A stretch of 45,130 nucleotides of DNA, from positions 1 to 45,130 of IMG/VR virus record IMGVR_UViG_3300047546_003235; one strand, written 5' to 3'. Below the pieces are notes generated by a model. The model ran no database searches, was not told where the DNA came from, and saw only the letters and a list, made by a program, of their open reading frames with translations. The DNA comes from a virus. Positions 4,024-29,884 of the stretch are shown piece by piece (position 1 is the first letter of the stretch; each line of letters begins with the position of its first letter). A program made the position numbers and the translations under genes.

Positions 4024-4220
4024 GCGACACAGCCTGGACCATCTTCGTGATCGTCTTGGCAGTGTCGGCAGTGATATATTTCACTGCCATCTTACTCTGG
4101 ATATTCTGGGATGATTTGGTAGAACCTGCACCCACGAAAAAACCCATTCGTGATACAATAGAGCCAGAGCCCACAGATCCTGTGAGCCGTTTTCGTAACC
4201 TACGCCGACCTGTAAAATGA
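4020..4220 (+). CDS. small single-pass membrane protein
   Basis: A 66-residue protein starting and ending in ATGA overlaps. Residues 6-30 form a transmembrane helix (WTIFVIVLAVSAVIYFTAIL, then LWIFW). A short hydrophilic tail rich in Pro, Glu and Arg follows. Function unknown. Coupling to the downstream phosphoesterase suggests joint expression, not necessarily a joint role. Confidence 0.7.
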   Translation: MSDTAWTIFVIVLAVSAVIYFTAILLWIFWDDLVEPAPTKKPIRDTIEPEPTDPVSRFRNLRRPVK

Positions 4221-5059
4221 AAATCGCACTTGCCAGTGACCTCCATCTGGAGTTCGGGGATATCCACCTCGCCAATGACCAGGGCGCGGATGTGCTGCTG
4301 CTGGCTGGTGATATCATGATTGCCCAGGACCTGCATGACCATCCGGCTGAAAATCTGGCTACAGGCATCAACCTGGGCACCAGGCAACAAGCGGCCCAGA
4401 GATATCGTGAATTCCTGGCTCGTGTGAGTCAGGAGTTTCCTCATGTGATCTATATTGCGGGCAACCATGAGTTCTATCACGGCAAGTTTCATGCCAGCCT
4501 GGATGACCTGACCAACGAGTGCAGTAAGTTCGCCAATGTCCATTTCCTGGAAAATGATACCCGGGTCATTGATGGCATAACATTCGTTGGTTGCACACTC
4601 TGGACTGACATGAACAAGGGTGACCCACTCACACTTCACACGGTTGCAGGCATGATGAATGACTACCGCATCATCCGTGAGGATAGTAAGGGTTATACCA
4701 AACTGAGGCCGGCACATACTCTGGCCCGTCACCGTCGCAGTCTGGAATATATTCGCAATGCGGTTGGGGGCAAGACGGGAGAAAAATTTGTGGTGGTGGG
4801 CCATATGGCTCCCAGCCCGCAGAGTACTCACGAAAGATATAGGGACGATCCCATCATGAACGGGGCTTACAGCAGTGACCTGAGTGAGTTCATTCTGGAT
4901 CATCCACAAATTCAGGCCTGGGTTCATGGTCACACTCACTACAATTTTGACTACATGATTGGCACGACCAGAATCCTGTGCAATCCACGTGGCTATGTGG
5001 GCTATGAGCGTGGTACACAGGAGGAGGATCCCTATCATGCTCAGGTGTTTGAAGTGTGA
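4217..5059 (+). CDS. calcineurin-like metallophosphoesterase
   Basis: A 280-residue cytoplasmic protein with all metallophosphoesterase motifs in order: D8-x-H10 (SDLHLEF), GD at 31-32 (LLLAGDIM), GNHEFY at 82-87, a GHMAPS motif, and HGHTHYN near the C-terminus. These residues bind the two metal ions. The family hydrolyses phosphomono- or diesters, and T4-like phages carry several members. The substrate cannot be deduced. Length and motifs are complete and the start is fixed by the ATGA overlap. It is the last gene of the run before an inverted repeat and a new promoter. Confidence 0.88.
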   Translation: MKIALASDLHLEFGDIHLANDQGADVLLLAGDIMIAQDLHDHPAENLATGINLGTRQQAAQRYREFLARVSQEFPHVIYIAGNHEFYHGKFHASLDDLTNECSKFANVHFLENDTRVIDGITFVGCTLWTDMNKGDPLTLHTVAGMMNDYRIIREDSKGYTKLRPAHTLARHRRSLEYIRNAVGGKTGEKFVVVGHMAPSPQSTHERYRDDPIMNGAYSSDLSEFILDHPQIQAWVHGHTHYNFDYMIGTTRILCNPRGYVGYERGTQEEDPYHAQVFEV

Positions 5060-5497: not shown

Positions 5498-5818
5498 ATG
5501 AACCTAGCAAAAATACAAGAAGCCCTGGTCATCCTGCAAGAAGAATGTGGTGAGGTGGTACAGGTGGTGGCAAAGTGTCACAGATTCGGTCTGGACGGTG
5601 TAAACCCAGTGGATGGCTCCACAAACCGAGATCGGCTGTCGGCCGAGATTGGTGATCTGGTGTGCATGGTTGAAATATTACAAGAATTGGGCGTGCTGGA
5701 CCAGCAAGAAATTCAAAATCGTGCTACAATGAAGCGTCACAAACTGGAACGCTGGAGCACGTTGTTTGCACCAGATACTTTTGAAACTACACTTTACGAT
5801 CTGGATCAAAATGTTTGA
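5498..5818 (+). CDS. MazG-like nucleotide pyrophosphohydrolase
   Basis: A 106-residue helical protein. E15-E16-x-x-E19 (QEECGEVVQVVAK) and E50-x-x-D53 (AEIGDLVCMVE) form the paired acidic metal-binding motifs of the all-alpha NTP pyrophosphohydrolase (MazG/dUTPase-like) superfamily. Phage MazG-type enzymes cleave nucleotides or alarmones; the substrate here is unknown. The ATG lies only 8 nt after the terminator stem and lacks a Shine-Dalgarno, so expression may come from read-through or an unseen promoter. Confidence 0.75.
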   Translation: MNLAKIQEALVILQEECGEVVQVVAKCHRFGLDGVNPVDGSTNRDRLSAEIGDLVCMVEILQELGVLDQQEIQNRATMKRHKLERWSTLFAPDTFETTLYDLDQNV

Positions 5819-6227: not shown

Positions 6228-6508
6228 AGTTTCTGCCCAACAACGATCCTTTTTCACAAATGGTACGAGGTATTCTGTCTCATCAAGAACGCTTGCTTAG
6301 TGACGGCTTGCGTATCACGCCTGAGCAATATCAAGAATTCTTGCGACACTACATCATTGACGCACTGGCTGGAAAAAGATTGGGGCAGAGTTTTTGTGAA
6401 CGGCATGGCATAAGCAATGCCAGCCCACTCTACTACTTCCGAGATAATAATTTCAGTGAACGCTGGATTCATGATAATTACATAGAACATGAAACCCAAA
6501 TTTCGTGA
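6224..6508 (+). CDS. conserved small phage protein ('SFCERHGI...YYFRDN...RWI')
   Basis: A 94-residue protein starting at GTG 6224 in a GTGA overlap. The signature LGQSFCERHGISN, then PLYYFRDNNFSERWIHDNYI, resembles a small family I associate with marine T4-like phages. Function unknown. The helical pattern suggests a compact DNA- or protein-binding domain, which is only inference. It overlaps the deaminase start by 20 nt. Confidence 0.7.
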   Translation: MKFLPNNDPFSQMVRGILSHQERLLSDGLRITPEQYQEFLRHYIIDALAGKRLGQSFCERHGISNASPLYYFRDNNFSERWIHDNYIEHETQIS

Positions 6509-6938
6509 TTACTACATGCAGGTGGCCGAGTCTACTGCCCAGTTGAGCACAGCGCAGAGATTGAAAGTGGGGGCAGTGGTGGTGCGTGACCAGAAGATAC
6601 TAGCCACGGGCTATAATGGCACACCCAGCGGCTGGGACAACAATTGCGAAGATGTTGTCTGGCACAGTAATGGTGAGAGGACGCTGAAAACCCGACCCGA
6701 AGTGCTGCATGCAGAGGCCAACAGTATTCTAAAAATAGCCCGTAGCACGGAGAGCAGTGAAGGCGCCACACTGTTTTGTACTCACGCACCCTGCTTAGAA
6801 TGTGCCAAACTGATCTATCAGAGTGGCATCCGCCAGTTGTTCTATCGTGATGCATATCGTGATAGTTCAGGACTGGACTTTTTACAACAAGGCGGCATAG
6901 AGGTTGAACAATACCAGTCAGATAAAAATCCGGGTTGA
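6489..6938 (+). CDS. dCMP/cytidine deaminase family protein
   Basis: A 149-residue protein with the zinc-dependent deaminase motifs: H74-A-E76 (VLHAEANSI) and P101-C102-x2-C105 (APCLECAKLIY). The N-terminal part (VGAVVVRDQKILATGYNGTP) is typical of phage and cellular dCMP deaminases, which make dUMP for dTMP synthesis during phage DNA replication. T4 has one (gene cd). Length is slightly short of T4's but all catalytic residues are present. The next gene begins inside its 3' end, opening the L-R-W array. Confidence 0.88.
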   Translation: MKPKFRDYYMQVAESTAQLSTAQRLKVGAVVVRDQKILATGYNGTPSGWDNNCEDVVWHSNGERTLKTRPEVLHAEANSILKIARSTESSEGATLFCTHAPCLECAKLIYQSGIRQLFYRDAYRDSSGLDFLQQGGIEVEQYQSDKNPG

Positions 6939-7146
6939 GCACGGCAAACTGGAACCAGTAATGAACTGGTGCCGTGAGCATTGTATCGGTCGCTGGAGTG
7001 TGACTGATGAAATAGATGACCAGGGCGCCACCTATGGTGAAACATATGGTTGGCCCCGAAGCATATATGCTTTTGTGTTTGAAGATGAGCGTGACCTGTT
7101 ACTGTTTGAATTGCGCTGGAGTGGTTGTGGAATTAGTTCTAACTAA
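6904..7146 (+). CDS. F-x-L-R-W array protein 1
   Basis: An 80-residue first member of the tandem paralogue array. The proposed TTG start at 6904 lies inside the deaminase gene, with AAGGCGG about 8 nt upstream. It is chosen because the body IKIRVEHGKLEPVMNWCREH aligns with later members. The family core is visible: WCREHCIGRW, a short beta region with FVFEDERD, then LLFELRW. Unlike later copies, the L-R-W is followed by nine extra residues. Function unknown; the family looks like a small alpha/beta domain of 65-80 residues. Confidence 0.6.
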   Translation: MNNTSQIKIRVEHGKLEPVMNWCREHCIGRWSVTDEIDDQGATYGETYGWPRSIYAFVFEDERDLLLFELRWSGCGISSN

Positions 7147-7429
7147 ACTGGATCGTCGCCATCGCGGTTATGGCATCTGGAAATACAGCGTGACCTGGCA
7201 CCGCCGTGTTCGTCATGCTGATGGTGTGCGGCAGTTCTGGCAGTGGCGTGAATGGGCCTGGAACACCTGGGGGCCCAGCAAAGAAGTGGAATGGTATTCA
7301 ACCGCTGACATGTTTGATGGCGAATGTTCCAGTAACGCACACTGGTGCTGGCAGTGTGACCAGTGGGCCACCCGCTTGTTCTTGCGTGATGATGTTGAAG
7401 CTGAACTGTTCATGCTACGATGGAAATGA
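7127..7429 (+). CDS. F-x-L-R-W array protein 2
   Basis: A 100-residue protein; GTG 7127 is preferred (GGAG 5 nt upstream) over GTG 7121. It is tryptophan-rich (FWQWREWAWNTWG, WCWQCDQWATRLF) and ends DDVEAELFMLRWK, the array's hallmark ending. It is longer and more diverged than the later copies. Its last codons (CGA TGG AAA TGA) contain the next gene's start. Function unknown. Confidence 0.65.
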   Translation: MELVLTKLDRRHRGYGIWKYSVTWHRRVRHADGVRQFWQWREWAWNTWGPSKEVEWYSTADMFDGECSSNAHWCWQCDQWATRLFLRDDVEAELFMLRWK

Positions 7430-7647
7430 CCGCAGTGACCCTGGCGGGTATGGGTATACCAGAATATATTGACATTGTGGTGGATTTGCGCCATAATGGA
7501 TATATACAAAATGTAGATTACGAATGGGAAGTGATCAACAGTGTGGATCCTGAAACACCCAGATATCGTAAGTGTATATTTAGGTTTAGTGATCCACGCA
7601 ATGCCACCTACTTTGCCCTGAAATACAGTGATCACGTGGAGAAATAA
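7426..7647 (+). CDS. F-x-L-R-W array protein 3 (diverged)
   Basis: A 73-residue protein, ATG 7426 in an ATGA overlap (an in-frame ATG at 7420 is an alternative). The ending is degenerate: PRNATYFALKYSDHVEK, where FALKY replaces F-x-L-R-W and six residues follow. The preceding pattern of a beta strand (RKCIFRFSD) then A-T-Y-F matches the family. It may be a decaying or specialised copy. Function unknown. Confidence 0.6.
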   Translation: MTAVTLAGMGIPEYIDIVVDLRHNGYIQNVDYEWEVINSVDPETPRYRKCIFRFSDPRNATYFALKYSDHVEK

Positions 7648-7648
7648 C

Positions 7649-8491
7649 ATGGCACAAAGAAGTAATTACTGGAGTTGTAGTAAATTTGCGGACTGGATTC
7701 GCGGCATTGAAAAAGGTGGCGCCAAGACCAGTCGTGGCTGGCGTGACTGGGAGCGTGAGGGCCGGGCTAAACATCCCATTCGCTACTGGATTGCCGAAGA
7801 GGCACTGGACGCCATTCAGAACTTCATTTGGTGGCCTGTGGACCAACTGTACGAAATCAAGTACTATGTGAACAACCGCTGGGTCACTCGCACTCATGCC
7901 CTGACTGCACACCCCCGCGACATTCGCCCGGGCCAGTGGCGGGATGTGGGCTACCGTTTCCTGCCCTGCCTGTTCAATGAGCTGGTGGACTTTGTGGAGG
8001 TTGAGCAGGCCTGGAGTCATATTGCCTGGGATCCAGAGGCTCGCAAAAAGTATCGCCCGCCCTTCTATGCCTGGGGCTGGTTCCGCTGGCGTACCTGGCG
8101 TTGTCCTGAGGCCGGTCTGGACTACTTGCGCTGGGCCAGCGAACTGCGTCACAACGAGGAGTGGGACAAGGATAGCGAACACTATGACCAGCCCACACGA
8201 CAGGCTCTGGCCGCACAGGAAATCCTGGCCTTGTATGACTGGTGGGTAAATGTTCGTCCCCAGCGTGTTGACCCACATGATGCCAGCGGCTGGAGTGCTC
8301 ACTGTGACCGCCTGCGTGAGCGTGATGGGGGCCTGCTGTCTGGTCTGGACCACGAGAACGAAACCGCCGAAGAACGAGCCGAGGTCAGTCGCATGCTGGA
8401 TGAATCCTACCGTCTGGAAGAACAGTACGAGCAGGAGGATGAGGACATGATGATCCGCCTGATTCGTGTTCGCCGCAGTCTCTGGACATGA
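7649..8491 (+). CDS. conserved phage protein, about 280 residues, interrupts the array
   Basis: A 280-residue protein, ATG 7649 with GTGGAG upstream. It is tryptophan- and arginine-rich (FADWIRGIEKGG, RYWIAEEALDAI, YYVNNRWVTRTHALTAHPRD) with an acidic helical C-terminus. I have seen this layout in uncharacterised proteins of large myophages, without a known function. It does not share the L-R-W ending, so it sits inside the array as an unrelated gene. The stop overlaps the next start (ATGA). Confidence 0.7.
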   Translation: MAQRSNYWSCSKFADWIRGIEKGGAKTSRGWRDWEREGRAKHPIRYWIAEEALDAIQNFIWWPVDQLYEIKYYVNNRWVTRTHALTAHPRDIRPGQWRDVGYRFLPCLFNELVDFVEVEQAWSHIAWDPEARKKYRPPFYAWGWFRWRTWRCPEAGLDYLRWASELRHNEEWDKDSEHYDQPTRQALAAQEILALYDWWVNVRPQRVDPHDASGWSAHCDRLRERDGGLLSGLDHENETAEERAEVSRMLDESYRLEEQYEQEDEDMMIRLIRVRRSLWT

Positions 8492-8658
8492 AGCACTATG
8501 TTCACCGTGCCCGCGATGGTCGGGTTCAAGGCATCATCAAATGGTGTCGTGCCCACGGTGAGCGTGGACAGGACTGGGACTTTGCGGGTGGCTTGAATGT
8601 ACACATCTGGTTCATGAACAGCCAACTGGAAGTGGCCTATATCTTGCGCTGGGAATAG
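8488..8658 (+). CDS. F-x-L-R-W array protein 4 (short)
   Basis: A 56-residue protein starting in an ATGA overlap. It contains IIKWCRAHGERGQDWDF and ends LEVAYILRWE, so it is a minimal version of the family: the W-C-R/E-x-H helix, one strand pair (LNVHIWFMNS) and the C-terminal helix. It may define the smallest working unit of the family. Confidence 0.7.
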   Translation: MKHYVHRARDGRVQGIIKWCRAHGERGQDWDFAGGLNVHIWFMNSQLEVAYILRWE

Positions 8659-8662
8659 GCTT

Positions 8663-8911
8663 GTGGTTAAAACCGTAAGCATACACTGGGACGATAGACA
8701 GAAAGCGGGATGGTATGAACAAACATGGCCTCATGAGCCTGATGTTGATTTTGACGGTGTTATTGATCGTTATGACAGCATCGTCGGCTGGATACAGGAA
8801 TATGTTGAAAACGCCCAGCGTCACGCACGGTGGACCATAACTGTTGAACACGTGAGTTTTAGATTTCGCTATGAGCGAGATTATCTAAATTTTCTAATAC
8901 GATGGCGATAG
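8663..8911 (+). CDS. F-x-L-R-W array protein 5
   Basis: An 82-residue protein with GTG start at 8663 behind ATAGG. It contains DSIVGWIQEYVENAQRHARW, then a strand pair (VSFRFRYERD), and ends YLNFLIRWR. The stop TAG at 8909-8911 overlaps a possible GTG start of the next gene. Function unknown. Confidence 0.65.
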   Translation: MVKTVSIHWDDRQKAGWYEQTWPHEPDVDFDGVIDRYDSIVGWIQEYVENAQRHARWTITVEHVSFRFRYERDYLNFLIRWR

Positions 8912-9132
8912 TGAGAGCACCTGAGCACAAGATAGTAGTTTCAAAACAAGTGGTAGAGCCTGCCAGCCGGTGGTGTCAGGAACGCTGGGGCAAACGCTGG
9001 AGTGCCGTTGACTATCATGAGGGCACCTGGTGTTGTTTCTGGGCTGGTCATCGTGGGCCAGATGCTGGTAAATATGTATTTCATTTTGACACAGAGACAC
9101 AGGCATTGGAGTTTGCACTACGATGGCAATGA
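8902..9132 (+). CDS. F-x-L-R-W array protein 6
   Basis: A 76-residue protein that shows the family core most clearly: PASRWCQERWGKRWSAVDYH, then GTWCCFWAGH, YVFHFDTETQA and LEFALRWQ. The start may be ATG 8902 (inside the previous gene's Arg-Trp codons) or GTG 8911 in a TAGTG overlap. The second fits the overlap pattern of the array better; the first has the stronger start codon. Confidence 0.7.
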   Translation: MAIVRAPEHKIVVSKQVVEPASRWCQERWGKRWSAVDYHEGTWCCFWAGHRGPDAGKYVFHFDTETQALEFALRWQ

Positions 9133-9344
9133 CAGATGTTTGGTTGAATGACAGTGGGCGCAGTTTGATAGAGGGCCTCAAGATGTTTGCTCAGGCAGAT
9201 CAGTGGGCACAGGAGCATTGCCAGAGTTATCGTGGTCATGAAGTGACTGATGTTTCGGATGTAAGCCTAGTGTATGATCATGTGGCCGGTTATAGTTTTG
9301 GCAACGAACAGGATGCCCTGATTTTCAGGCTACGCTGGCGATGA
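9129..9344 (+). CDS. F-x-L-R-W array protein 7
   Basis: A 71-residue protein, ATG 9129 in an ATGA overlap (ATG 9123 is an in-frame alternative). It has ADQWAQEHCQSYRGHEV as the first helix region and ends QDALIFRLRWR. The family Cys is displaced (W-A-Q-E-H-C). From here on every junction in the array is a 4-nt ATGA overlap. Confidence 0.7.
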   Translation: MTDVWLNDSGRSLIEGLKMFAQADQWAQEHCQSYRGHEVTDVSDVSLVYDHVAGYSFGNEQDALIFRLRWR

Positions 9345-9592
9345 AATACTGGAACAAAACACGGGAGGCCAGGAAGAGGACCTGGACGCAAGTTCAGTGG
9401 CGACCACACAACATGAATTTCTATACCATAGAAGTGAACATAGAAGAAATGAAGCGATGGTGCCAGCATCAACCGGGTGGTCGTTTCTGGTATTCGGAGC
9501 ACTGGGCTGATGATCATGATCCTGTCTATTACTGGACCTGGTGGTTTGAACGACCCAGTGATGCCACGACATTTACCCTGAGGTGGCTATGA
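9341..9592 (+). CDS. F-x-L-R-W array protein 8
   Basis: An 83-residue protein, ATG 9341 in an ATGA overlap. It contains IEEMKRWCQHQPGGRFWYSE, then PVYYWTWWFERPSDATTFTL and RWL. Its last codons CTG AGG TGG CTA TGA are the first in the array to use AGG for Arg, which creates GAGG 5 nt before the next ATG. Confidence 0.7.
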   Translation: MKYWNKTREARKRTWTQVQWRPHNMNFYTIEVNIEEMKRWCQHQPGGRFWYSEHWADDHDPVYYWTWWFERPSDATTFTLRWL

Positions 9593-9795
9593 GAGCATTG
9601 AACCGATCCATATGGCCCTATCGTGTGACCATTGACAGTGATATAAAAAAAGTCATTCACCCTATGGAAAAATGGCTACTGGATGAAGTGGGGCAGATCA
9701 CACAGGTCTGGACTGTGGTGTATCTGTATAATCACACTCATTTCTATTTTCGCCAGAGTGAACACGCCACCCACTTTACCTTGAGGTGGCTATGA
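9589..9795 (+). CDS. F-x-L-R-W array protein 9
   Basis: A 68-residue protein; ATG 9589 in an ATGA overlap is preferred to GTG 9583. It has MEKWLLDEVGQITQVWTVVY, then HFYFRQSEHATHFTLRWL. The first-helix Cys is absent (EKWLLDE). It ends with TTG AGG TGG CTA TGA, again placing a Shine-Dalgarno before the next start. Confidence 0.7.
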   Translation: MRALNRSIWPYRVTIDSDIKKVIHPMEKWLLDEVGQITQVWTVVYLYNHTHFYFRQSEHATHFTLRWL

Positions 9796-10037
9796 CTGTC
9801 ACACATCAAACCAACAGCCTGGGGCTGCAAGTGCCTGTGCTACACCGTGTGGTGTATGCCCGTGATCTGGAAATGCCAGCACAGTATCAGCGTAGTTATC
9901 AGGACCACTTGATTAGTGAATGGCTCCAGCAAAACTGCCGGCATCCTTACTATCACAGTCCTGGCTGGATGCGAGAAAAGTTCATACAATTTGAATGCGA
10001 CCAAGAAGCCATGCTGTTTTCGCTGAGGTGGGCATGA
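9792..10037 (+). CDS. F-x-L-R-W array protein 10
   Basis: An 81-residue protein, ATG 9792 in an ATGA overlap. It contains ISEWLQQNCRHPYYHSPGWM and ends CDQEAMLFSLRWA. The terminal codons CTG AGG TGG GCA TGA again carry GAGG 5 nt upstream of the next ATG. Function unknown. Confidence 0.7.
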   Translation: MTVTHQTNSLGLQVPVLHRVVYARDLEMPAQYQRSYQDHLISEWLQQNCRHPYYHSPGWMREKFIQFECDQEAMLFSLRWA

Positions 10038-10231
10038 GTAATTGGGTAGACATGCCTATGTATTGGCCCAGCAATGTGGATGAAAAGGCTTACGAGGCTT
10101 TGGAATGGGCCAAGAAAAATTGTCCTAGCTATATTACCAATGATGCTGTAGAAAAAGAAGGCAAATGGTATTATCGTTTCTTTTTTAGTCAAGAGAAAGA
10201 TGTTATGATTTTTATGTTGAGATGGGCATGA
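10034..10231 (+). CDS. F-x-L-R-W array protein 11
   Basis: A 65-residue protein, ATG 10034 in an ATGA overlap; an upstream in-frame extension from 9995 overlaps the previous gene and is rejected. It has YEALEWAKKNCPSYITNDAV, then YYRFFFSQEKDVMIFMLRWA. Its last Arg is AGA (TTG AGA TGG), so the embedded Shine-Dalgarno is weaker than in its neighbours. Confidence 0.7.
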   Translation: MSNWVDMPMYWPSNVDEKAYEALEWAKKNCPSYITNDAVEKEGKWYYRFFFSQEKDVMIFMLRWA

Positions 10232-10437
10232 AGTTCAGTAACATAGACAAAGCCACACGCAACAGCGCCTGGACTCGTGTTCGCATGCCCCCTGGCAGTG
10301 TTGTCAAGCGGTGGGAAATAAAAATCTGGCTACAGCAACAATCCAGCACTGGCGGTTACTACCACTACTATGGTGGTGACAGTTATTGGTTTGAACTGGC
10401 ACAGGATGCCGCCATGTTTGCGTTGAGGTGGGCATGA
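10228..10437 (+). CDS. F-x-L-R-W array protein 12
   Basis: A 69-residue protein, ATG 10228 in an ATGA overlap. It has VVKRWEIKIWLQQQSSTGGY, then DSYWFELAQDAAMFALRWA. It ends with TTG AGG TGG GCA TGA, with GAGG 5 nt from the next ATG. Function unknown. Confidence 0.7.
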   Translation: MKFSNIDKATRNSAWTRVRMPPGSVVKRWEIKIWLQQQSSTGGYYHYYGGDSYWFELAQDAAMFALRWA

Positions 10438-10841
10438 AATTGGTACGAGATATCCGGGCCGCCTACAAATTTTACCGTGATCGTGCCTTTCTAAAGCGAC
10501 ACGGTTGCGAAACCTGGCAGGAGTACAATAGAGCGTTTGACCCAGATCGTAATCCCAGAGCCCATCGCATACAGGATTACTATCATGGTTATCCACATGT
10601 TTATTGTTTTGAGAACTATCAGCATGACATATATTTCTGGGATGTGTACCAGGACGGCACTTATGTGATCAGCCGTTGGTGCGAACAGAATCTACAGGGT
10701 AAATGGCGTTTTGACGCACACCGGGTGTTGCGTGTCTGGAGCGGGCAGTGGGAATTCAACGATATAGGTGGCAGTGACTATATCTTTGGTGCCTTTCAAC
10801 TTGAACAGGATTTCATACATTTTCAGTTGAGGTGGGCATGA
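10434..10841 (+). CDS. F-x-L-R-W array protein 13 with an extra N-terminal domain
   Basis: A 135-residue protein, ATG 10434 in an ATGA overlap. The C-terminal 70 residues are a standard family member (VISRWCEQNLQGKWRFDAHR, then FIHFQLRWA). The first 65 are an additional domain (YKFYRDRAFLKRHG, TWQEYNRAFDPDRNPRAHRI, DYYHGYPHVYCFE) with a pattern I associate with separate phage hypotheticals. This is therefore a fusion and may show what the small domain partners with. Function unknown. Confidence 0.72.
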   Translation: MKLVRDIRAAYKFYRDRAFLKRHGCETWQEYNRAFDPDRNPRAHRIQDYYHGYPHVYCFENYQHDIYFWDVYQDGTYVISRWCEQNLQGKWRFDAHRVLRVWSGQWEFNDIGGSDYIFGAFQLEQDFIHFQLRWA

Positions 10842-11050
10842 TGGAGGACTGGAACTATGAGGTGCGAGTGGTACATGATGACTACTCCGTGATAGCCCAG
10901 TGGTGCGAACAGTATATAGGACCTTTCGGGCAGGATTGGTACAGACTGGGCAATGATATAGCCATGATGGTATTTGAACACAATGTGGGAACCATGTATT
11001 ATTTTCGCCAGGCAGAACACGCTGTGCTTTTTAGATTGATGTGGGCATGA
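10838..11050 (+). CDS. F-x-L-R-W array protein 14
   Basis: A 70-residue protein, ATG 10838 in an ATGA overlap. It contains YSVIAQWCEQYIGPFGQDWY, then YYFRQAEHAVLFRLMWA, where Arg of L-R-W is replaced by Met (TTG ATG TGG). This removes the embedded Shine-Dalgarno before the last array gene. Confidence 0.7.
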   Translation: MMEDWNYEVRVVHDDYSVIAQWCEQYIGPFGQDWYRLGNDIAMMVFEHNVGTMYYFRQAEHAVLFRLMWA

Positions 11051-11280
11051 CTGAAATATTTGACACACGCCGTAGATTTCAACTGGTAGACAGTGAGCTA
11101 CTGGGCTTTGAACCCAACCTCATAGTCATGACCAATGTGGGCTGGTGGGCAGATAATCTGGATACAGTGCTTGACTGGCTAAAGCAAAATTGTGCTGGCA
11201 CATATAAATGGGAGGGCATGACCCTGCAGTTCCAACTGGAGAGTGATGCCAGTGCTTTTTGTTTGTGCTGGTCAGACTGA
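11047..11280 (+). CDS. F-x-L-R-W array protein 15 (last)
   Basis: A 77-residue protein, ATG 11047 in an ATGA overlap. It has LDTVLDWLKQNCAGTYKWEG and ends ASAFCLCWSD, a degenerate form of the motif. No gene is coupled downstream, which fits relaxed constraint on the Arg codon. A 70-nt intergenic stretch then separates it from the convergent minus-strand island. That stretch holds GGCCGGCC and a repeated ATACCAGT but no convincing terminator. Confidence 0.68.
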   Translation: MTEIFDTRRRFQLVDSELLGFEPNLIVMTNVGWWADNLDTVLDWLKQNCAGTYKWEGMTLQFQLESDASAFCLCWSD

Positions 11281-11350: not shown

Positions 11351-11668
11351 TTAGCGTGGCTTGGCATCAGCCGGCCTTATGGTAAAATCCAATCCCCCAC
11401 CCAACACACAGGCACGGTCACCTTTGACAACCACCAGTGTCCAGGTTTTAGTCAAGGGGTTCACTGTGACAGCCATGGCACCGCCACCGCTTTCGGGAGC
11501 ACCCAGGCCAGCCACAATGGGTTCTTCTCCATAACCCTGCTTCAATGCCTCAAATACTTTGGCACTGTCATCGCACAGGGCACGATATATTTGTGTGTTG
11601 GTTTGTGACCAGGCGTTACTTTGACTGAGCCCTAAACACACCATCCCAATCAGGTGCCAAATTCGCAT
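11351..11668 (-). CDS. secreted protein of unknown function
   Basis: A 105-residue protein with an N-terminal signal peptide (LIGMVCLGLSQSNAWS then Q). The mature part contains YRALCDDSAKVFEALKQGYG, then GGGAMAVTVNPLTKTWTLVV and a Cys in DRACVLGGG; the two Cys could form a disulfide. The start overlaps the cyclase 3' end by 53 nt but has GAGGAG 7 nt upstream, which supports it. It is the promoter-distal gene of the minus-strand island. No family recognised. Confidence 0.6.
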   Translation of the reverse strand: MRIWHLIGMVCLGLSQSNAWSQTNTQIYRALCDDSAKVFEALKQGYGEEPIVAGLGAPESGGGAMAVTVNPLTKTWTLVVVKGDRACVLGGGLDFTIRPADAKPR

Positions 11669-12692
11669 TACGCATCTCCTCTATACGCTCCAACCACAAA
11701 TCATAATAATGATCCATGCCGCCGCCGAATTCACCCCGCAAATCATTCACAAGTTTTTCAGCAGTGGCCCACTTTTGCTCACGGTAGCACTGTAGCATCA
11801 GATCATGGTGCTCTTTGGCCACGGCCCACTTCACTCGCTCTACCTCAGTTTCGGGATTATAGAACACAGTGAAAATATTCACACCCTCTGTTTTGCCCTT
11901 GACTGCAATACAATCCAATTCAAGTGTGAAATATTCATCGCCAAGACGTTCAGCCGTAACAGGTCCCAACACAATTAGTACGCCATAGTTTTTACTCTGA
12001 CCCTCTAAACGACTAGCCAGATTAACAGCATCGCCCAGGCAAGTGTAATCAAACCTTTGATCGCTACCCATATTGCCCACCACGACCACGCCAGTGTTGA
12101 TACCAATGCCCATGCCAAATGGCGGCACACCCTCACTAGTAATTTCATTATTAAACCTTTCCAGATCACCCAGCATTTCCAGTGCTGCTTTGACAGCATC
12201 TTTACAATGCTTGGTATTGTCTACTGGAGCATTGAAAAAGAACATTATGGCATCCCCAATAAATTTGTCCAAGGTTCCGCCATTGGTCAAAATACTTTTA
12301 CACATGGCAGTCATGTACCTGTTCATTATGCTAGTCAACCCCTCTACATTTTTTCCATAATGTTCGCTTATAGATGTAAATCCTCGTACATCAGTAAATC
12401 CAATAGTTAGTTCTTGCTCAGAACCTCCCAGTTTCAACAATCCAGGATCTTTTACTAATTTGGCAACTAAATCTGGACTCATATAAGTCCCGAACTGTTT
12501 TTTTATCATCTGCTTTTGATTGAATTCGTGAATAAATTTCACAATGTTTACATGTAAGGCGACTATCAAAACAGCAATAATAGGAAATGTAGCATCAAAT
12601 AATATTTGATAATATTCATATGAATACCATGAACCAAGTAAAAAACCAAGAACTAAAACAACCGGTACTAAAAAACTCAATATCTTATTCAT
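11616..12692 (-). CDS. class III adenylate cyclase, C-terminal half of a split CHASE2 receptor
   Basis: A 358-residue protein: two membrane helices (about residues 4-24 and 33-52), a linker, then a class III cyclase domain (about 90-260). Metal ligands D101 (GFTDVRGFT) and D147 (FIGDAIM), adenine-selecting K143 (LDKFIGD) and D221 (LGDAVNLASR), and catalytic N224 and R228 are all present, so ATP to cAMP is the expected reaction. It lacks the CHASE2 sensor that normally precedes such helices. That sensor lies upstream at 13437-14441, beyond the endonuclease gene. Its ATG overlaps the endonuclease stop by 8 nt and lacks a Shine-Dalgarno, suggesting re-initiation. Confidence 0.88.
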   Translation of the reverse strand: MNKILSFLVPVVLVLGFLLGSWYSYEYYQILFDATFPIIAVLIVALHVNIVKFIHEFNQKQMIKKQFGTYMSPDLVAKLVKDPGLLKLGGSEQELTIGFTDVRGFTSISEHYGKNVEGLTSIMNRYMTAMCKSILTNGGTLDKFIGDAIMFFFNAPVDNTKHCKDAVKAALEMLGDLERFNNEITSEGVPPFGMGIGINTGVVVVGNMGSDQRFDYTCLGDAVNLASRLEGQSKNYGVLIVLGPVTAERLGDEYFTLELDCIAVKGKTEGVNIFTVFYNPETEVERVKWAVAKEHHDLMLQCYREQKWATAEKLVNDLRGEFGGGMDHYYDLWLERIEEMRNANLAPDWDGVFRAQSK

Positions 12693-13440
12693 ATCGCTGC
12701 GCCCATTTTTTATAATTTGCCAAATCCATTTCTTTCTTGTCTACAAGCCTACATATTTTCTTTTCTTTGGGTTTTCCTTTTGCTTTTGTAATACCTTTTT
12801 TTACACCCTTTTGCGGAGATGAAATCTCACCAGTATGCCATCTGGTATCTAATAAAGAGACAAGCCCTATATATTCACCAGTTTTATTGTCTTTGGCTGG
12901 GGCATGACCAGTGAACCTATTTTTGTGATGTTCTCTGCGGAGCGTATCATCCCATAAGTATTTCAATCTTTGTTGTTCTTTTTCTCTCCGTTCGTCACTA
13001 GTATTTCGTAGAGTTTTTTGTTTCTCTATTCCCAACAGACCAATTTCCTTCATATGATTTTTATTTTTCCTGATTCCGTACATGGGATTTTTGTCCCCTT
13101 TGATGGCATTTGAATTTTTTTGACGATGTTCAGGAGTTTGTGGTCCTCTTTTATTACCCTTAGGCCACCCGTCAATACCGTTTTCTATAATCTGATTAGC
13201 CCATTCAACTGATTCCACAATATTGTTTTGTATTGAAAAATTCATTGCAAATTTACTACATTCATCAATATTATCAAACTCCCATATTTCAATAGTAGAC
13301 ACATCATTGCCATGCTTTTTTATGTGATTTTTCCAGTATATTCCTGAGCCTGAATATTTTTCAGGATTTTGTGTTTGAGTTTTTCCGAAGTATTTTAGAC
13401 CTGTTCTATTATGCTGTTTTACATACAAATATACTTTCAC
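12685..13440 (-). CDS. GIY-YIG homing endonuclease (Seg-like) with NUMOD3 motif
   Basis: A 251-residue protein, GTG start. Residues 4-21 hold the GIY-YIG core in the form YLYV ... KYFGKT; a YSGSGIYW motif and a Glu-containing helix (NNIVESVEWANQ) follow. Near residues 98-125, GPQTPEHRQKNSNAIKGDKN then PMYGI is a NUMOD3 DNA-binding motif. The tail is lysine-rich. The gene is much richer in A+T than its neighbours, typical of a mobile gene. The start overlaps the CHASE2 stop (GTGA) behind a strong GGAGGAG; the stop overlaps the cyclase start. It thus sits in frame-compatible fashion inside a former single gene. Confidence 0.9.
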   Translation of the reverse strand: MKVYLYVKQHNRTGLKYFGKTQTQNPEKYSGSGIYWKNHIKKHGNDVSTIEIWEFDNIDECSKFAMNFSIQNNIVESVEWANQIIENGIDGWPKGNKRGPQTPEHRQKNSNAIKGDKNPMYGIRKNKNHMKEIGLLGIEKQKTLRNTSDERREKEQQRLKYLWDDTLRREHHKNRFTGHAPAKDNKTGEYIGLVSLLDTRWHTGEISSPQKGVKKGITKAKGKPKEKKICRLVDKKEMDLANYKKWAQRYE

Positions 13441-14441
13441 TTTCTCCTCCAGATTCCAAAAAATATTATTAATACGCCTGCCACCAGGATGGCCAGTATT
13501 TCTATTTCATCGGCCAGATTGTGGCGAACTATGGTTGTTTTGTTCAACATGGTGCCCATGACACTGGCCTGCAGTTCTTGTGGCCATACTTCGCCACGAC
13601 TGGTGGGTACAGGGTTTACTAGACCAGCAGCACCTAAACCCACCACCACAATACCACCACCAAAGTCAGCAGGCAGTGCAGCCAGACTATGTTGTGTTGG
13701 GCGCACACTGTAATCTATCCAGATGCGTCCTATACGATCTGTGATGATTTTGCCCTGACTGGGCACTCTAATAGCCTCAACTCCCAGGTCACTGAATTTG
13801 GCCTGCACACGGGCATCACCGCCAGCCACACGCAATGTTTCTAACGATAAAGCAGCATGCAAGGCACCATCACTGGTGGTTAGCAGCAGGGGCATACGGC
13901 GTACTACACCATCAACTTCGGGAAATGTATTGACAACGCCAGTACCGGCTGCACCTTCTTCTAGCACAGGCGTGTTAGCAATCATGCCGGGATACTCAAC
14001 CAACAAGCCTCTGGGGTCTGCACCCACTGTTTGCACAGGATTGGCAAATGCATTATTCTTGCCACGGGCTGCTGCCACATGCGGCAGAATCACGGGTATT
14101 TGCTCCAGGGTTTTAGCTAACACTCCATCCTTGCGGAATCTGTCGGCTTCGGGCATGAGCACATTGAATACCACTAGACCGGCATTTCTTTTGTATAAGT
14201 CCTGAATAATATCAGCGTACATATCACGGGGAAAGGGGAACTGCCCCAGCTTATCTAATGCTGCCTCATCAATATTCACCACATGCACAGGCACTGGCTT
14301 TTCAGGTTGACCAGTGATCAACTGGTCAAAAGAGCGTAATCTCACGCTTTCTACGAATGCTGGATCTAGCATTCTGATCACCAGCACAATGGCCAGAGTC
14401 AATAATGCTGTCCAGGGATTGAGTGCAATTTTCTTGAACAT
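13437..14441 (-). CDS. CHASE2 sensor domain protein, N-terminal half of a split receptor
   Basis: A 334-residue protein: a short cytoplasmic start, a membrane helix (about residues 11-25), a periplasmic CHASE2 domain (from SFDQLITGQPEKPVPVHVVN with NIDEAALDKLGQFPFPRDMY, through GRIWIDYSVRP and GGGIVVVGLGAAGL), then one membrane helix (LAILVAGVLIIFFGIW) and a stop at WRRK. CHASE2 domains are extracytoplasmic sensors, usually fused through three helices to a cyclase or kinase. Here only one of the three is present, the other two starting the cyclase gene. Its ligand is unknown. Confidence 0.85.
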   Translation of the reverse strand: MFKKIALNPWTALLTLAIVLVIRMLDPAFVESVRLRSFDQLITGQPEKPVPVHVVNIDEAALDKLGQFPFPRDMYADIIQDLYKRNAGLVVFNVLMPEADRFRKDGVLAKTLEQIPVILPHVAAARGKNNAFANPVQTVGADPRGLLVEYPGMIANTPVLEEGAAGTGVVNTFPEVDGVVRRMPLLLTTSDGALHAALSLETLRVAGGDARVQAKFSDLGVEAIRVPSQGKIITDRIGRIWIDYSVRPTQHSLAALPADFGGGIVVVGLGAAGLVNPVPTSRGEVWPQELQASVMGTMLNKTTIVRHNLADEIEILAILVAGVLIIFFGIWRRK

Positions 14442-14445
14442 CTGG

Positions 14446-14453
14446 TATTTATG
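14446..14453 (-). promoter_or_regulatory. T4-type late promoter element before the CHASE2 gene
   Basis: On the minus strand CATAAATA is followed by CCAG and then the ATG at 14441. The predicted transcript start falls at or beside the ATG, so the message would be leaderless if this element is used. It matches the motif seen before late genes on the plus strand. Confidence 0.5.
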
Positions 14454-14479
14454 AAAATCCAGACGCGCAAAGACCAGTG

Positions 14480-14572
14480 CTATTGTGGTTTGCGGTTTTC
14501 TTCTAATGGCACTGGCGCAGGTTGTGGTCTATAAGGTGGGTGTTTAGGGGGTTTGTGTCTGAACCAACTCAT
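14480..14572 (-). CDS. 30-residue proline-rich micro-protein
   Basis: A short frame starting MSWFRHKPP and ending ENRKPQ, with GGAG 7 nt upstream of the ATG. Short 'MSWFRxKP' proteins resemble small hypotheticals I associate with T4-like marine phages. It begins just downstream of the DUF4337-like gene's terminator, so it needs read-through or its own promoter. Function unknown. Confidence 0.5.
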   Translation of the reverse strand: MSWFRHKPPKHPPYRPQPAPVPLEENRKPQ

Positions 14573-14585
14573 TGTGCGTCTCCAT

Positions 14586-14608
14586 AAAAAAGCCCCTTTG
14601 CAGGGGCT
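14586..14608 (-). terminator. intrinsic terminator of the minus-strand operon
   Basis: On the minus strand AGCCCCT and AGGGGCT form a perfect 7-bp stem around a 4-nt loop, followed by six T. It lies 10 nt after the stop of the DUF4337-like gene, separating the curli-like genes from the CHASE2-cyclase genes. Confidence 0.88.
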
Positions 14609-14617
14609 GTTGTTTTG

Positions 14618-15127
14618 TTAGAACCATAACCAGACTGCTTGGCTGACTAATACGGCTCCTATACCTCCCACGACTGTGCTAATCCAGAACATGGGCATGC
14701 TTACTGCCAGAATACTGGCTGTGAGCAACACGATGGCTATTTGTAGAATGCTGCCGCCCCAAGTAAACCAGGGTGAACGCTGTTTGGCTGCTTCGCGTTC
14801 GGCTTCCAGTGCCTTGGCTTTTTCCATGATTTCCTTTTTGTCTGCTTCCATGCGTCGGGCTTCGGCTTCAAATTTGGCCCGATTTTCAGGAATCTTGGCT
14901 TCCATGGCACTTGTCTCATACAGAACCTGGCGCACATTTTTGGCCTGATACCAACTCCACTGATTGTTGGCAGCAATGGTGTTGTTCATGATCTTGCTGC
15001 TGTTGCTACCGCCCAGCATGGTGTTGATGGCCAGTAGTGCAGCCAAGAACACGATGATGAATCCAGCTTTGTCTTTGATTTTTGCTTCACGTTCGCTACG
15101 TGATAGAGGTTTCCGTTCTTCTGACAT
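14618..15127 (-). CDS. DUF4337-like membrane protein
   Basis: A 169-residue protein. A charged N-terminus is followed by a helix (AGFIIVFLAALLAINTMLGG), then NNTIAANNQWSWYQAKNVRQ, a charged coiled coil (about residues 75-115), and two C-terminal helices (SILQIAIVLLTASILAVSMP, then FWISTVVGGIGAVLV). The W-x-x-Y-Q-A-K segment and helix layout are typical of DUF4337, a family of unknown function. AAGGAG precedes the ATG, with a late-type promoter motif just upstream. The terminator follows. Confidence 0.72.
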   Translation of the reverse strand: MSEERKPLSRSEREAKIKDKAGFIIVFLAALLAINTMLGGSNSSKIMNNTIAANNQWSWYQAKNVRQVLYETSAMEAKIPENRAKFEAEARRMEADKKEIMEKAKALEAEREAAKQRSPWFTWGGSILQIAIVLLTASILAVSMPMFWISTVVGGIGAVLVSQAVWLWF

Positions 15128-15139
15128 AAGTTCTCCTTG

Positions 15140-15147
15140 TATTTATG
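15140..15147 (-). promoter_or_regulatory. T4-type late promoter element
   Basis: Minus-strand CATAAATA followed by CAAGGAGAACTT and the ATG at 15127. It overlaps the stop of the upstream curlin-repeat gene and would give the DUF4337-like gene its own late transcript. Confidence 0.55.
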
Positions 15148-16609
15148 GTCCACCGCCCTGTGTGACGGTCACTGTACATCCTTGTAAGTTAGCACATTGT
15201 TGCGTGATGTTTATACTTTGTGCAGTATTACCTTGCTGGATAAGATTTACATTTGATGCGCCACCACTGTTTGTGAGATTTACTGTTGCTCGGTGGCTGG
15301 CGGCATCACGTTGACTGCCAGTAACATTATGATTGTTTCCAGTCAACGACAGGTCAAAATAATGATTGCCCGTGCCCTGTTGTGTCACATCAAATACATT
15401 TGTGTTTCCTGATAAGAAACCAAAGAATATTTTTTCGTTATTGCCTGTTTGTCTGAGGACGCCCTGGTTGCCAGAGCCTAGTATGTCAACATACATAAAC
15501 TGCCCAGATGCGGAGCCGCCAGAGTTGTTTTGCTTTGTTACTAATGTGTTGCCGTTGCCGGCGATGTTTATGCCAGCATAGTGACCGCCACTGTCTTGCG
15601 CATTAATTACACCGGTTGTCAGGTCTCGGGTCTGCCAGACAGTAAGTGAATTTGTGTTTCCTGTGATGGAAAACTCAATGAGATTTTTACCAGCAGCACT
15701 GCCTTGCTTGATGTTTACAGTGTTATTGTCTCCATCAATAACAGCATATGTTGTGCCACCCAGACCGGAAATCTTGTTGTAGTTACCTGATTGCTCAACA
15801 GTTACATTATTTCCACTGCTTCCTGTTTTTTCTTCAATGTATATATGATTGCCCAAAGAGATATTTGACACGCGATTTTTTGCAGCATTTCGCACGGTCA
15901 TTTGTGTATTAGTAATACCATCACTGACTGGCCAGCTAGGGGCAGCATCAGGATTAGTGGGACAGTTGTTAGTGCATCCAGCAGTATATGTCTGACTGGG
16001 GGTTGCTAGGCTAGTAAATCCACTGCCCCCGGGCAATGAGCATTCAGTGGGGGGTAAGCTGACATTACCGCACGTGCCTGCATATACTCCCAATTGAACG
16101 CTGTTACCGTCGCTGGTATTATCGCCATTTACATCAAATGACAGTGTATATACTACCCCGGCGGTCAAACGCACCGCTTGGTAGATGGCATCAAAACTGC
16201 CCACAGCACCGTCGTACCAAAGTCCACTCATCCAGGTTCCTGCAGCCGCCGGATATGTGCCATTTTGATAGGCCACACCCCAGGCTGTGGGAGCGTTGAT
16301 ATACTGGGTCCCGGCATTTGTTTGCACTTGGACAGTACCGCCAGTTGTCATATCGCCGTTAGTTAGTAGGTTGGTGCTATTGCCAGGCACAGTAACTCTG
16401 ATGTTATCCACGCGCCAATAGGCAGGATCCTGTCTGAATGCCAGCATGAAATAATTAGAGCCAGTTGTGCCAGCAGTGAAAGTAAATGTATAAGTTTGCC
16501 ATTGTCCGGGCACATTGTTTAGCACACGGCCGATGTACCCAGCCGGTAGAGTTTGTGCATTTACCATGCCAGCAAGAAACAAGAATAATGTGACAAATAA
16601 CTTTTTCAT
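15143..16609 (-). CDS. large secreted curlin-repeat protein with N-terminal beta domain
   Basis: A 488-residue protein with a signal peptide (KKLFVTLFLFLAGMVNAQ). Residues about 20-200 look like a galactose-binding or carbohydrate-binding-like beta domain (WQTYTFTFTAGTTGSNYFML, then YWRVDNIRVTVPG). From about 235 on there are curlin-like repeats with spaced Gly-Asn-x-Asn and Gln (GNNVTVEQSGNYNKISG, GNTNSLTVWQ, GSGNQGVLRQTGNNEKIFFG, GTGNHYFDLSLTGNNHN). Curlin repeats build extracellular amyloid. A fused binding domain would suit a fibre tip or adhesive subunit. It overlaps the FecR gene's stop (ATGA). Confidence 0.75.
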   Translation of the reverse strand: MKKLFVTLFLFLAGMVNAQTLPAGYIGRVLNNVPGQWQTYTFTFTAGTTGSNYFMLAFRQDPAYWRVDNIRVTVPGNSTNLLTNGDMTTGGTVQVQTNAGTQYINAPTAWGVAYQNGTYPAAAGTWMSGLWYDGAVGSFDAIYQAVRLTAGVVYTLSFDVNGDNTSDGNSVQLGVYAGTCGNVSLPPTECSLPGGSGFTSLATPSQTYTAGCTNNCPTNPDAAPSWPVSDGITNTQMTVRNAAKNRVSNISLGNHIYIEEKTGSSGNNVTVEQSGNYNKISGLGGTTYAVIDGDNNTVNIKQGSAAGKNLIEFSITGNTNSLTVWQTRDLTTGVINAQDSGGHYAGINIAGNGNTLVTKQNNSGGSASGQFMYVDILGSGNQGVLRQTGNNEKIFFGFLSGNTNVFDVTQQGTGNHYFDLSLTGNNHNVTGSQRDAASHRATVNLTNSGGASNVNLIQQGNTAQSINITQQCANLQGCTVTVTQGGGP

Positions 16610-17871
16610 CTGAAGTTCTGGTTGATTACAATTTGACCCTGAGCACGATTGCCAGCAAAGTTATAACTGGTGGTCTGCATGTCTTGGGTCACAATTACAT
16701 TGACCTGTGTGTTTATGGGCAATGTGATATTGGTATAGTTGCGACTATTGTTGGCCAGTCTTTCATACTGCCAGCCCACTTGTTGTGTCTCAGCACGATC
16801 ACGCCAGAGTTTCTTGACATATGGGTTATCGTTGTCGGAGGTGGCAGTTACAGTGGCAGGAACCGGTGCTGGAGCAGGCTCAGGTTCTTTGGCGCTTTGT
16901 GCTACAGTCACAACACTTACTGCATCATCTATTTTGCTGGCCAAATCAGTTTCTACTTTGACTTCAGCTACAGCAGTTGTGGTTTTTTCTTCTGCTACTG
17001 CTTCACTAGTAGAACTGGCAGCGGCGGTGCTGGCTGCTGCACGGGCCACTACTCGGCGATTGGCTGTGCTAGATTTTTTATCAGCAGCCACTTGTTGTTC
17101 TTGACTTTCGTTGCCGTCGTTTTTATCTTCTTTGGCATCACTTTTGGCCTGGCGAGTAACACCAGTGCTGGCTGCAGCCTGTCTAGCAGCCGCAACCAAT
17201 CCTGCACCACTCATGGTTCTGGGCGGTGTAATCTGTAAGTTGTTGCCCACTGGTGTGTTGAACAAGTTCACAGTGATGGGCGGTGTTGGTGGTTGACCTG
17301 CACTTTCTACCAGTGTGGCCTGATAGGGTCTGGTTAGTTTGACCTGATTGGGCCCGCTTTCTACATCAATGGCACCACTGCCACATATCAAGCCCTTGAC
17401 TGCACTGGTTTCCCAGTCACATGTGGGCATCAGAATCACCATGCTGCCACCAGTTTCGTTTACACTCATGACGAAATCAGTGCCACGAACAGCAATGGCC
17501 GCTGTGGGTGTTTTGATGTTGACTGCTTTGGGGTCTTTGGCTATTGCGCCACTGACATAACGAACTGTACCAGCCGCTGCCTTCAGTCCCAGTTTGCCTG
17601 CTCGGGTGTTGGGATCGTACACAAAGTCATCAATCACAAGGCTACTGTGTTCGGTAACACTAACTTGCGTGTCGTCCTTAAACACAATTTTGACCCGGCC
17701 GTTCTTGGTTTCAACCTTATCGTTCTGTTCTACAACGGTGCCTTTGCTGACTGCGATGGTCTCTTTGCCACGCTTGATAGTGGCAAGACCACTATGCTCT
17801 GTGACTGAGCCTATGTTGGCCAGTACTGGGCCAGCCAGTACCAGCCAGATCAACGCCAGCAAGTGCTTCAA
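16606..17871 (-). CDS. secreted FecR-domain protein
   Basis: A 421-residue protein; TTG start at 17871 with GGAG 6 nt upstream. Signal peptide (LLALIWLVLAGPVLA), then a FecR domain (about residues 20-200; GSVTEHSGLATIKRG, FKDDTQVSVTEHSSLVIDDF, PTAAIAVRGTDFVM). Next comes a long low-complexity linker rich in Ala, Thr, Lys and Glu. The C-terminus (YNFAGNRAQGQIVINQNFR) resembles a single curlin-type repeat. FecR domains occur in periplasmic signal or structural proteins and are often neighbours of CHASE2 cyclases. Here the domain may sense or organise curlin-like subunits; that link is inferred. Confidence 0.8.
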   Translation of the reverse strand: MKHLLALIWLVLAGPVLANIGSVTEHSGLATIKRGKETIAVSKGTVVEQNDKVETKNGRVKIVFKDDTQVSVTEHSSLVIDDFVYDPNTRAGKLGLKAAAGTVRYVSGAIAKDPKAVNIKTPTAAIAVRGTDFVMSVNETGGSMVILMPTCDWETSAVKGLICGSGAIDVESGPNQVKLTRPYQATLVESAGQPPTPPITVNLFNTPVGNNLQITPPRTMSGAGLVAAARQAAASTGVTRQAKSDAKEDKNDGNESQEQQVAADKKSSTANRRVVARAAASTAAASSTSEAVAEEKTTTAVAEVKVETDLASKIDDAVSVVTVAQSAKEPEPAPAPVPATVTATSDNDNPYVKKLWRDRAETQQVGWQYERLANNSRNYTNITLPINTQVNVIVTQDMQTTSYNFAGNRAQGQIVINQNFR

Positions 17872-17883
17872 CTCACACTCCAG

Positions 17884-19505: not shown

Positions 19506-19506
19506 A

Positions 19507-29836: not shown

Positions 29837-29850
29837 ACGCTAGTAACCAG

Positions 29851-29858
29851 CATAAATA
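29851..29858 (+). promoter_or_regulatory. T4-type late promoter element
   Basis: CATAAATACAG in the 48-nt gap between the two LamG genes; the predicted start is about 21 nt before the ATG at 29885. Confidence 0.65.
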
Positions 29859-29884
29859 CAGATATTATTTGAGTATGTCTGCTT

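Follow-up and report, generated by a model that had tools for sequence, protein, structure and literature searches.

The window analysed here, a 45,130-nt stretch of an uncultivated virus record in IMG/VR, carries a run of small genes on its + strand, in which positions 6904-11280 are filled by 15 small ORFs and one unrelated 280-aa ORF. At 11 of the 15 junctions between these 16 consecutive genes the stop and the next start share a 4-nt ATGA overlap. The run and its upstream neighbours are as follows:

4217..5059, + strand: metallophosphoesterase gene, in the same gene run as the array
5498..5818, + strand: MazG-like pyrophosphohydrolase gene, in the same gene run as the array
6489..6938, + strand: dCMP deaminase gene (PF00383), directly upstream of the array; five further contigs have it next to their group C gene as well
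6904..7146, + strand: family gene 1, group C; likely TTG start; ends FELRW with 8 residues past the motif; overlaps the dCMP deaminase end
7127..7429, + strand: family gene 2, group Q; inferred GTG start; frame open from 7016
7426..7647, + strand: family gene 3, group D; divergent; ends FALKY with 6 residues past the motif
7649..8491, + strand: gene 4, the interrupting 280-aa gene, not of the family
8488..8658, + strand: family gene 5, group V
8663..8911, + strand: family gene 6, group G; GTG start
8902..9132, + strand: family gene 7, group K
9129..9344, + strand: family gene 8, without orthologous group
9341..9592, + strand: family gene 9, without group; nearest to gene 13
9589..9795, + strand: family gene 10, group B
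9792..10037, + strand: family gene 11, group P
10034..10231, + strand: family gene 12, group F
10228..10437, + strand: family gene 13, group A (a loose cluster)
10434..10841, + strand: family gene 14, group O; a helical extension at the N-terminus (about 50 aa) precedes the family domain
10838..11050, + strand: family gene 15, group E; a member with an AlphaFold model
11047..11280, + strand: gene 16 of the run, a family member of group J; closes the array; C-terminus FCLCWSD

The probable start of gene 1, TTG 6904, lies within the dCMP deaminase gene. That of gene 2 is uncertain, GTG 7127 being in agreement with a 100-aa ortholog in locus L001. The extra domain that had been noticed in gene 14 is real and conserved in other contigs. 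The neighbourhood of dCMP deaminase, MazG and metallophosphoesterase genes recurs in the window, in the five other group C contigs and in phage PA5oct. The neighbours of the array are genes of nucleotide metabolism, not known counter-defence genes.

Our results confirm that the array is one protein family beyond chance, as the initial annotation had proposed. A profile HMM was made from 72 family domains, all taken from contigs other than the window, and was searched against the window's 529 six-frame ORFs (40 codons or longer); it matched exactly the 15 array ORFs (E 5e-16 to 0.006) and nothing else. Gene 4 stood apart, in agreement with its description as the single unrelated interruption; it has no match in Pfam, PHROG or phage tblastn searches and is absent from the other loci compared. 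When the F-x-L-R-W end was cut from both model and targets, 9 of the 15 ORFs were still matched (E <3e-4), with no other ORF, and 6 were lost; among 3000 shuffled decoys that kept the tail, 10 reached E 0.01, the best at 5e-4. The shared features had been drawn too narrowly, as a W-C-x-E/Q helix and a terminal F-x-L-R-W: the helix Trp holds in 14 of the 15 members (gene 3 lacks it), but Trp-Cys occurs in only 6, and the exact F-x-L-R-W end is found in 10, the other five being FALKY, YILRW, FLIRW, FRLMW and FCLCW.

The two members modelled with AlphaFold, genes 15 and 14, have the same predicted beta-alpha-beta-beta-alpha domain (pLDDT 88.6 and 91.6, respectively). The gene 15 model was made from an alignment (A4) of 70 of the 87 dereplicated family domains, and the gene 14 model from an alignment (A8) of 19 of the 25 gene 14 orthologues, the window's own included. 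The concern that the proteins might have unrelated folds and share only their ending was not borne out in these two members, whose elements follow the same order, and 17 BFVD targets are common to the top 50 of both models. The nearest predicted folds in BFVD are unnamed proteins of uncultured Caudovirales phages, which resemble the array proteins in fold and whose records carry no function or family name; one of them, A0A6J5TA94, is a gene 14 orthologue (45% identity, E 3e-15). As to a fold of the ferredoxin-like, ACT, RRM or KH type, the best PDB matches had Z 6.5 (1v8c_B, 3.1 Å over 63 residues) and 5.0 (9brd_a, 4.2 Å over 63), and Foldseek with gene 15 gave E values of at least 2.9; these matches are middling and mixed, and we do not take them as family identity. 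Sequence searches of the PDB found nothing. The 70 members scanned against each of Pfam, PHROGs, NCBIfam and PADLOC matched no family model: the best E value was 0.006, and almost every match involved one member only. Library searches with individual members likewise yielded nothing of use.

Every column that reaches 90% conservation or more among 70 members holds hydrophobic or aromatic residues, and the F-x-L-x-W motif of the C-terminal helix belongs to the hydrophobic core. Since the best polar columns reach 70% only, there is no catalytic residue common to the family. Group O, taken alone, has the invariant polar residues Y31, D36, R97, N109, D115 and D126, a pattern that fits a group-specific binding or activity.

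The family is present in 37 IMG/VR contigs, in Sinorhizobium phage Phosso, in PA5oct-like Pseudomonas phages and in Agrobacterium phage Atu_ph07. Copy numbers reach 24 (in a 94-kb contig), 20, 15, 15 and 7 in contigs, with 50 matches in Phosso, 5 in Atu_ph07 and 3 in PA5oct, so that the array, although physically long, is less unusual than had been thought. These contigs were picked for holding a relative and are not a survey, several represent nearly the same phage (G006 to G009 resemble each other closely, as probably do G031/G032 and G034/G035), and match thresholds varied between the occurrence searches (0.1, 0.01 and 0.001, with 0.1 for the profile searches of isolates). The isolate members, annotated as hypothetical only, belong to the same family by profile and have a similar W-C helix and an end of the F-x-L-x-W type; Phosso has fewer coupled junctions, and Atu_ph07 and PA5oct have few members, with ends that are other aromatics or none. 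They surfaced only through the BFVD match to Atu_ph07 and through profile searches of whole records; tblastn with four members from the window or IMG/VR against 50,697 phage records gave no real match. The profile matched nothing in P-SSM2, HTVC008M, XacN1, SCTP-2, T4, Vibrio phage 2.275.O, GAP32, BcepSauron or RaK2, and the earlier statement that single members occur in marine phages found no support in the first five of these. No member was found in contig G037 or, by iterated profile, in loci L059-L061, which had been retrieved with gene 12. Two scans of bacterial genomes gave no match with two groups as queries, and because they covered these two groups only, bacterial homologues may still exist. 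In the accessible part of the open literature, we found no description of the family.

The paralogues are old and individually conserved, and what turns over is the content and order of the array rather than the sequences. In 12 of the 15 genes, the reciprocal best match lies in a contig of another phage and outscores all sister genes of the window; genes 9 and 13 alone are closest to each other, and for gene 8 no reciprocal match exists. Between four closely related contigs, the orthologues show purifying selection, with a pooled pN/pS of 0.34 versus 0.22 in neighbouring genes (ORFs close to the arrays and 150 aa or longer; the final six codons of the family genes were omitted). Diversifying selection is rejected as a general statement, the few pairs above 1 having a small dS. 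These results do not support a recent tandem duplication array, nor the earlier picture of repeated duplication with fast divergence in this genome.

The turnover is concentrated at the gene ends. At the seam TTGAGGTGGGCATGA (10423..10437, + strand), which recurs at 10827, the same letters encode Leu-Arg-Trp-Ala-stop and contain GAGGTG and the next ATG; at such seams, the Arg-Trp codons (AGG TGG) of many members double as the ribosome-binding site of the next gene. AGG accounts for 37 of 49 motif Arg codons where the next start overlaps and 10 of 22 where it does not, versus 32 of 309 inside family genes. In this count, members identical in their last 40 residues were taken as one, those lacking a clear motif were left out, and the reading was out of register in two of the 41 uncoupled rows. 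Coupling is not constant across the family, since 8 of the 24 Phosso members re-read are coupled. Related contigs differ in array content by whole genes, and breakpoints between them fall at gene ends in 39 of 61 cases versus 10.1 expected (maximum 20 in 1000 simulations), a count from four contigs compared pairwise and hence not fully independent (blocks of at least 200 nt and at least 85% identity; ends no more than 15 nt apart in one contig merged). Even paralogues that are not orthologous share 80 to 100% identity at their 3' ends, over 30 to 60 nt. The promoter and terminator scan (18 versus 11.8 and 9 versus 7.1 expected) was not informative.

We propose that each gene would supply the start signal of the next together with a similar 3' end, and because of this whole genes could be gained, lost or swapped at the seams without breaking expression. 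The exchange is seen as a pattern between the four related contigs; the translational coupling and the recombination route are presumed. It is possible, and we suggest it tentatively, that the genes are plug-in cassettes, whose conserved end serves three purposes at once: it forms the final core helix of the protein, gives any gene that follows its ribosome-binding site and offers the homology needed for exchange. Large phages could in this way build up and reshuffle a set of single-domain effectors one gene at a time, each expressed on arrival.

What are these proteins for? The explanation that we favour, without reaching an even level of confidence, is that they are old, conserved paralogues of one small-domain family, carried on seam-exchangeable genes, and that they act as single-domain binders, each with a different target in the infected cell. 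The array is a dense run of genes whose starts and stops overlap, next to genes of nucleotide metabolism, and its family is one of large T4-related phages. Each protein would bind its own target, which may be host machinery, defence systems or competing phages, with the common fold as scaffold and the variable surfaces giving specificity. A use in host takeover or anti-defence is plausible, although no member has a recognised relative among anti-defence proteins.

That the genes might be unrelated ORFs sharing only an end which the ribosome-binding site and start codon of the following gene impose is hardly credible: the seam does hold GAGGTG and ATG, and AGG is strongly preferred in coupled genes, but 9 of the 15 are recovered without the end motif, the F and L of the motif fall outside the ribosome-binding site, LRW persists where its Arg codon is CGC or CGA and in members without coupling, and an ortholog-only alignment yields the same fold. 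On the motif-free recovery, the codon pattern and the ortholog-only model, this artefact is rejected for the array as a whole. The 80 to 100% identical 3' ends and the breakpoints at seams would also be expected of a self-spreading gene family, of little benefit to the phage and kept by recombination between repeated gene ends, a reading made improbable by the purifying selection on most members and by the group-specific conserved residues.

A role inside the phage, as adaptor or regulator subunits whose paralogues bind a phage enzyme or form a mixed complex, perhaps around nucleotide metabolism, is unlikely but deserves to be taken seriously. The recurrent dCMP deaminase, MazG and metallophosphoesterase neighbourhood argues for it, as do the purifying selection and the conserved orthologues; against it, array content differs between close relatives and copies range from 0 (several isolates) to 50, which would be odd for core subunits. 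Purifying selection and old orthologues are equally expected from a phage-internal role, and this counts against host-facing binders. Large phages package many small proteins, and the members could accordingly be injected or structural virion proteins, which we regard as improbable; in PA5oct, whose virion proteins carry an ESI-MS/MS note in the record, none of the three members has this note versus 6 of the 24 genes shown nearby, a weak argument against it, as at that rate three unflagged members are expected about 4 times in 10.

The array of binders that we favour resembles the SPO1 host-takeover module, a cluster of small early genes, in its packed small ORFs, but that module is not known to be one paralogous family. 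Among jumbo phages, Bacillus phage G has about 35 zinc-ribbon copies, a lineage-specific array of small paralogues (PMC7824862), and the likeness is that of a small domain in many copies within one large phage genome, here 15. The array described here differs in belonging to another protein family, without a conserved metal-binding pattern, and in that its paralogues are mostly distant in sequence, shared with other phages and in many cases joined through the C-terminal motif.

This work delimits a family of proteins, so far without a name, that has hundreds of members among large phages, and suggests a route by which long arrays could be rebuilt while expression is kept. Phosso, which grows on the soil bacterium Sinorhizobium meliloti, offers a cultured phage for a direct test of array function. 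If the proteins do serve in counter-defence or takeover, their arrays would be a ready catalogue of binders of host targets.

Our results show that the fifteen small proteins encoded in tandem in the window, a virus record of 45,130 bases, form one family, as the initial annotation had proposed, and that their similarity exceeds chance. The array, whose genes are numbered 1 to 16 in order, is laid out as follows:

6904-11280, plus strand: the array, 16 consecutive ORFs
Within 6904-11280, plus strand: 15 family ORFs, 56 to 135 aa
7649-8491, plus strand: gene 4, the interrupter, 280 aa, of another kind

Packing is tight, with ATGA overlaps at 11 of the 15 junctions, and no counterpart of gene 4 was found in the other family loci examined or in phage records. 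A profile that contained no window sequence, only 72 domains taken from other contigs, recovered all 15 members and no other among 529 ORFs. When the F-x-L-R-W end was removed, 9 of the 15 were still recovered; the ending is therefore not the sole link between them. Among 3000 shuffled decoys that kept the ending, 10 reached E 0.01 (best 5e-4); gene 2, the weakest real member (E 0.006), falls inside this range and gene 3 (E 1e-4) just beyond it, the remaining thirteen stand at 2e-6 or below, and the orthologues of genes 2 and 3 in other phages are clear (62.7 and 30.3 bits).

Unrelated folds sharing only the ending, the outcome named at the start as one that would break up the family, were absent in the two members modelled of the 15. 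In the gene 15 model (70 family members; pLDDT 88.6, pTM 0.75) the elements follow one another as strand, helix, strand, short helix, strand, helix. The gene 14 model, made from 19 orthologues only (pLDDT 91.6, pTM 0.74), begins with an N-terminal helical extension and then shows the same succession plus one short additional strand. Among the top 50 BFVD targets of each model, 17 are common to both; among the solved structures compared with them, none was outstanding. All columns at least 90% conserved in the 70-member alignment are Trp, Phe or Leu (W22, F56, F65, L67 and W69 of gene 15) and the strongest polar columns are positions 61 (Asp, 70%) and 68 (Arg, 67%), so the alignment gives no hint of an active site shared by the family. 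In group O, the orthologous group of gene 14, half of the 12 columns invariant over 19 sequences are polar. Aromatic residues are enriched in the window members, at 17% versus 10% in ten other window proteins, and so is Trp, at 6.7% versus 1.8%.

Relatives' loci were drawn from IMG/VR scans. Profile searches of whole records gave 130 matches in the first 13 contigs, window included, and 155 in 24 of 25 further contigs; bacterial genomes, scanned with two groups only, gave no match. Sinorhizobium phage Phosso has 50 matches at E ≤0.1 (29 at ≤0.001), Atu_ph07 has 5 and PA5oct 3, two of the last recurring in each of the 11 PA5oct-like records found. A re-reading of 24 members in two stretches of Phosso showed the ending F-x-[LIM]-x-[WFYM] in 19 and coupling, with the start of the next gene overlapping the stop, in 8. 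Contig G009 has T4-type genes for terminase, a UvsX-like protein and SSB; its terminase is closest to PA5oct-like phages, at 51.5%, and to Phosso, at 48.8%; ORFs resembling, by eye, a porin and a phosphate-binding protein of Burkholderiales type (L033 18767-19786, L030 8112-9119) hint at its host.

For 12 of the 15 window genes, the reciprocal best match lies in another contig, above every sister (the exceptions are genes 8, 9 and 13), and 24 orthologous groups with at least two members extend over 13 contigs, group A being a loose cluster with more than one gene per contig. Diversification of the family therefore preceded the separation of these phages.

The ending seems to serve two ends. 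The motif Arg codon is AGG in 37 of 49 cases among 68 coupled members, in 10 of 22 among 41 uncoupled members, and in 32 of 309 Arg codons inside family genes; given this preference in coupled members, TTGAGGTGG together with the overlapping ATG behind it resembles a ribosome-binding site, one that for overlapping genes lies inside the end of the preceding gene. Coupled window genes 2, 7 and 8 keep the Arg with CGA or CGC codons, and uncoupled members outside the window keep F-x-L/M-x-W/Y; the protein motif is therefore selected for itself, and both constraints operate jointly on the ending.

Arrays differ in content by whole genes. Of 61 ends of alignable blocks, 39 lie no more than 35 nt from a family stop codon, against a mean of 10.1 and a maximum of 20 in 1000 random placements, and the 3΄ ends of non-orthologous members are similar across 30 to 60 nt. 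Family genes are constrained, if somewhat relaxed (pooled pN/pS 0.34 versus 0.22 in neighbouring genes, in the four related contigs G006 to G009).

The start of the array overlaps the last stretch of a dCMP deaminase gene, with MazG and a metallophosphoesterase further upstream. A group C gene, as gene 1 is, directly follows dCMP deaminase in 6 of the 7 contigs that have one, window included, G001 being the exception. In PA5oct, members adjoin the metallophosphoesterase and are followed a short way downstream by dCMP deaminase and MazG; in Phosso MazG adjoins one family cluster. Near two PA5oct members lies gp203 (L099 6309-6569), annotated 'polyubiquitin-like protein', and tRNA genes and an annotated histidyl-tRNA synthetase gene are scattered among the Phosso members (L100, 1-16000). 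The family domain is fused at the C-terminus of a protein of about 260 aa at L031 4457-5239 (the fusion has no Pfam match), L035 6913-7803 and L037 7015-7815, and one open frame at L021 6469-6990 holds two family domains. Beyond the array, the window, a phage contig, carries:

Within 11616-19517, minus strand: cyclase catalytic domain gene (PF00211)
Within 11616-19517, minus strand: separate CHASE2 gene (PF05226)
12685-13440, minus strand: GIY-YIG endonuclease-like ORF, by eye, between the cyclase and CHASE2 genes
Within 11616-19517, minus strand: FecR-like and curlin-repeat-like ORFs, by eye
Within 11616-19517, minus strand: CsgG (PF03783)

By eye, ORFs at 41408-41623 and 43313-43669 resemble translation initiation factor IF-1, also annotated in Phosso, and an A-type iron-sulfur carrier, and two very long ORFs at 25139-34378 (1565 and 1497 aa), with repeated lectin-like domains, are probably tail fibres.

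Arrays of small paralogues are already described for jumbo phages (PMC7824862, PMC13282480). The present family is without a model in the libraries searched, and of an ending of dual use with putative exchange at seams, the gene-end junctions, we met no description in the open literature searched; on these grounds we set this array apart from the known ones. Sequence comparison shows one fold family of old paralogues with whole-gene turnover at seams. The seams may mediate gene exchange, and neighbouring genes would be translationally coupled. Since copy number varies widely and content turns over, we favour a putative outward-facing arsenal over core phage functions, in which the variable surfaces of the proteins would bind different targets, putatively on the host side.
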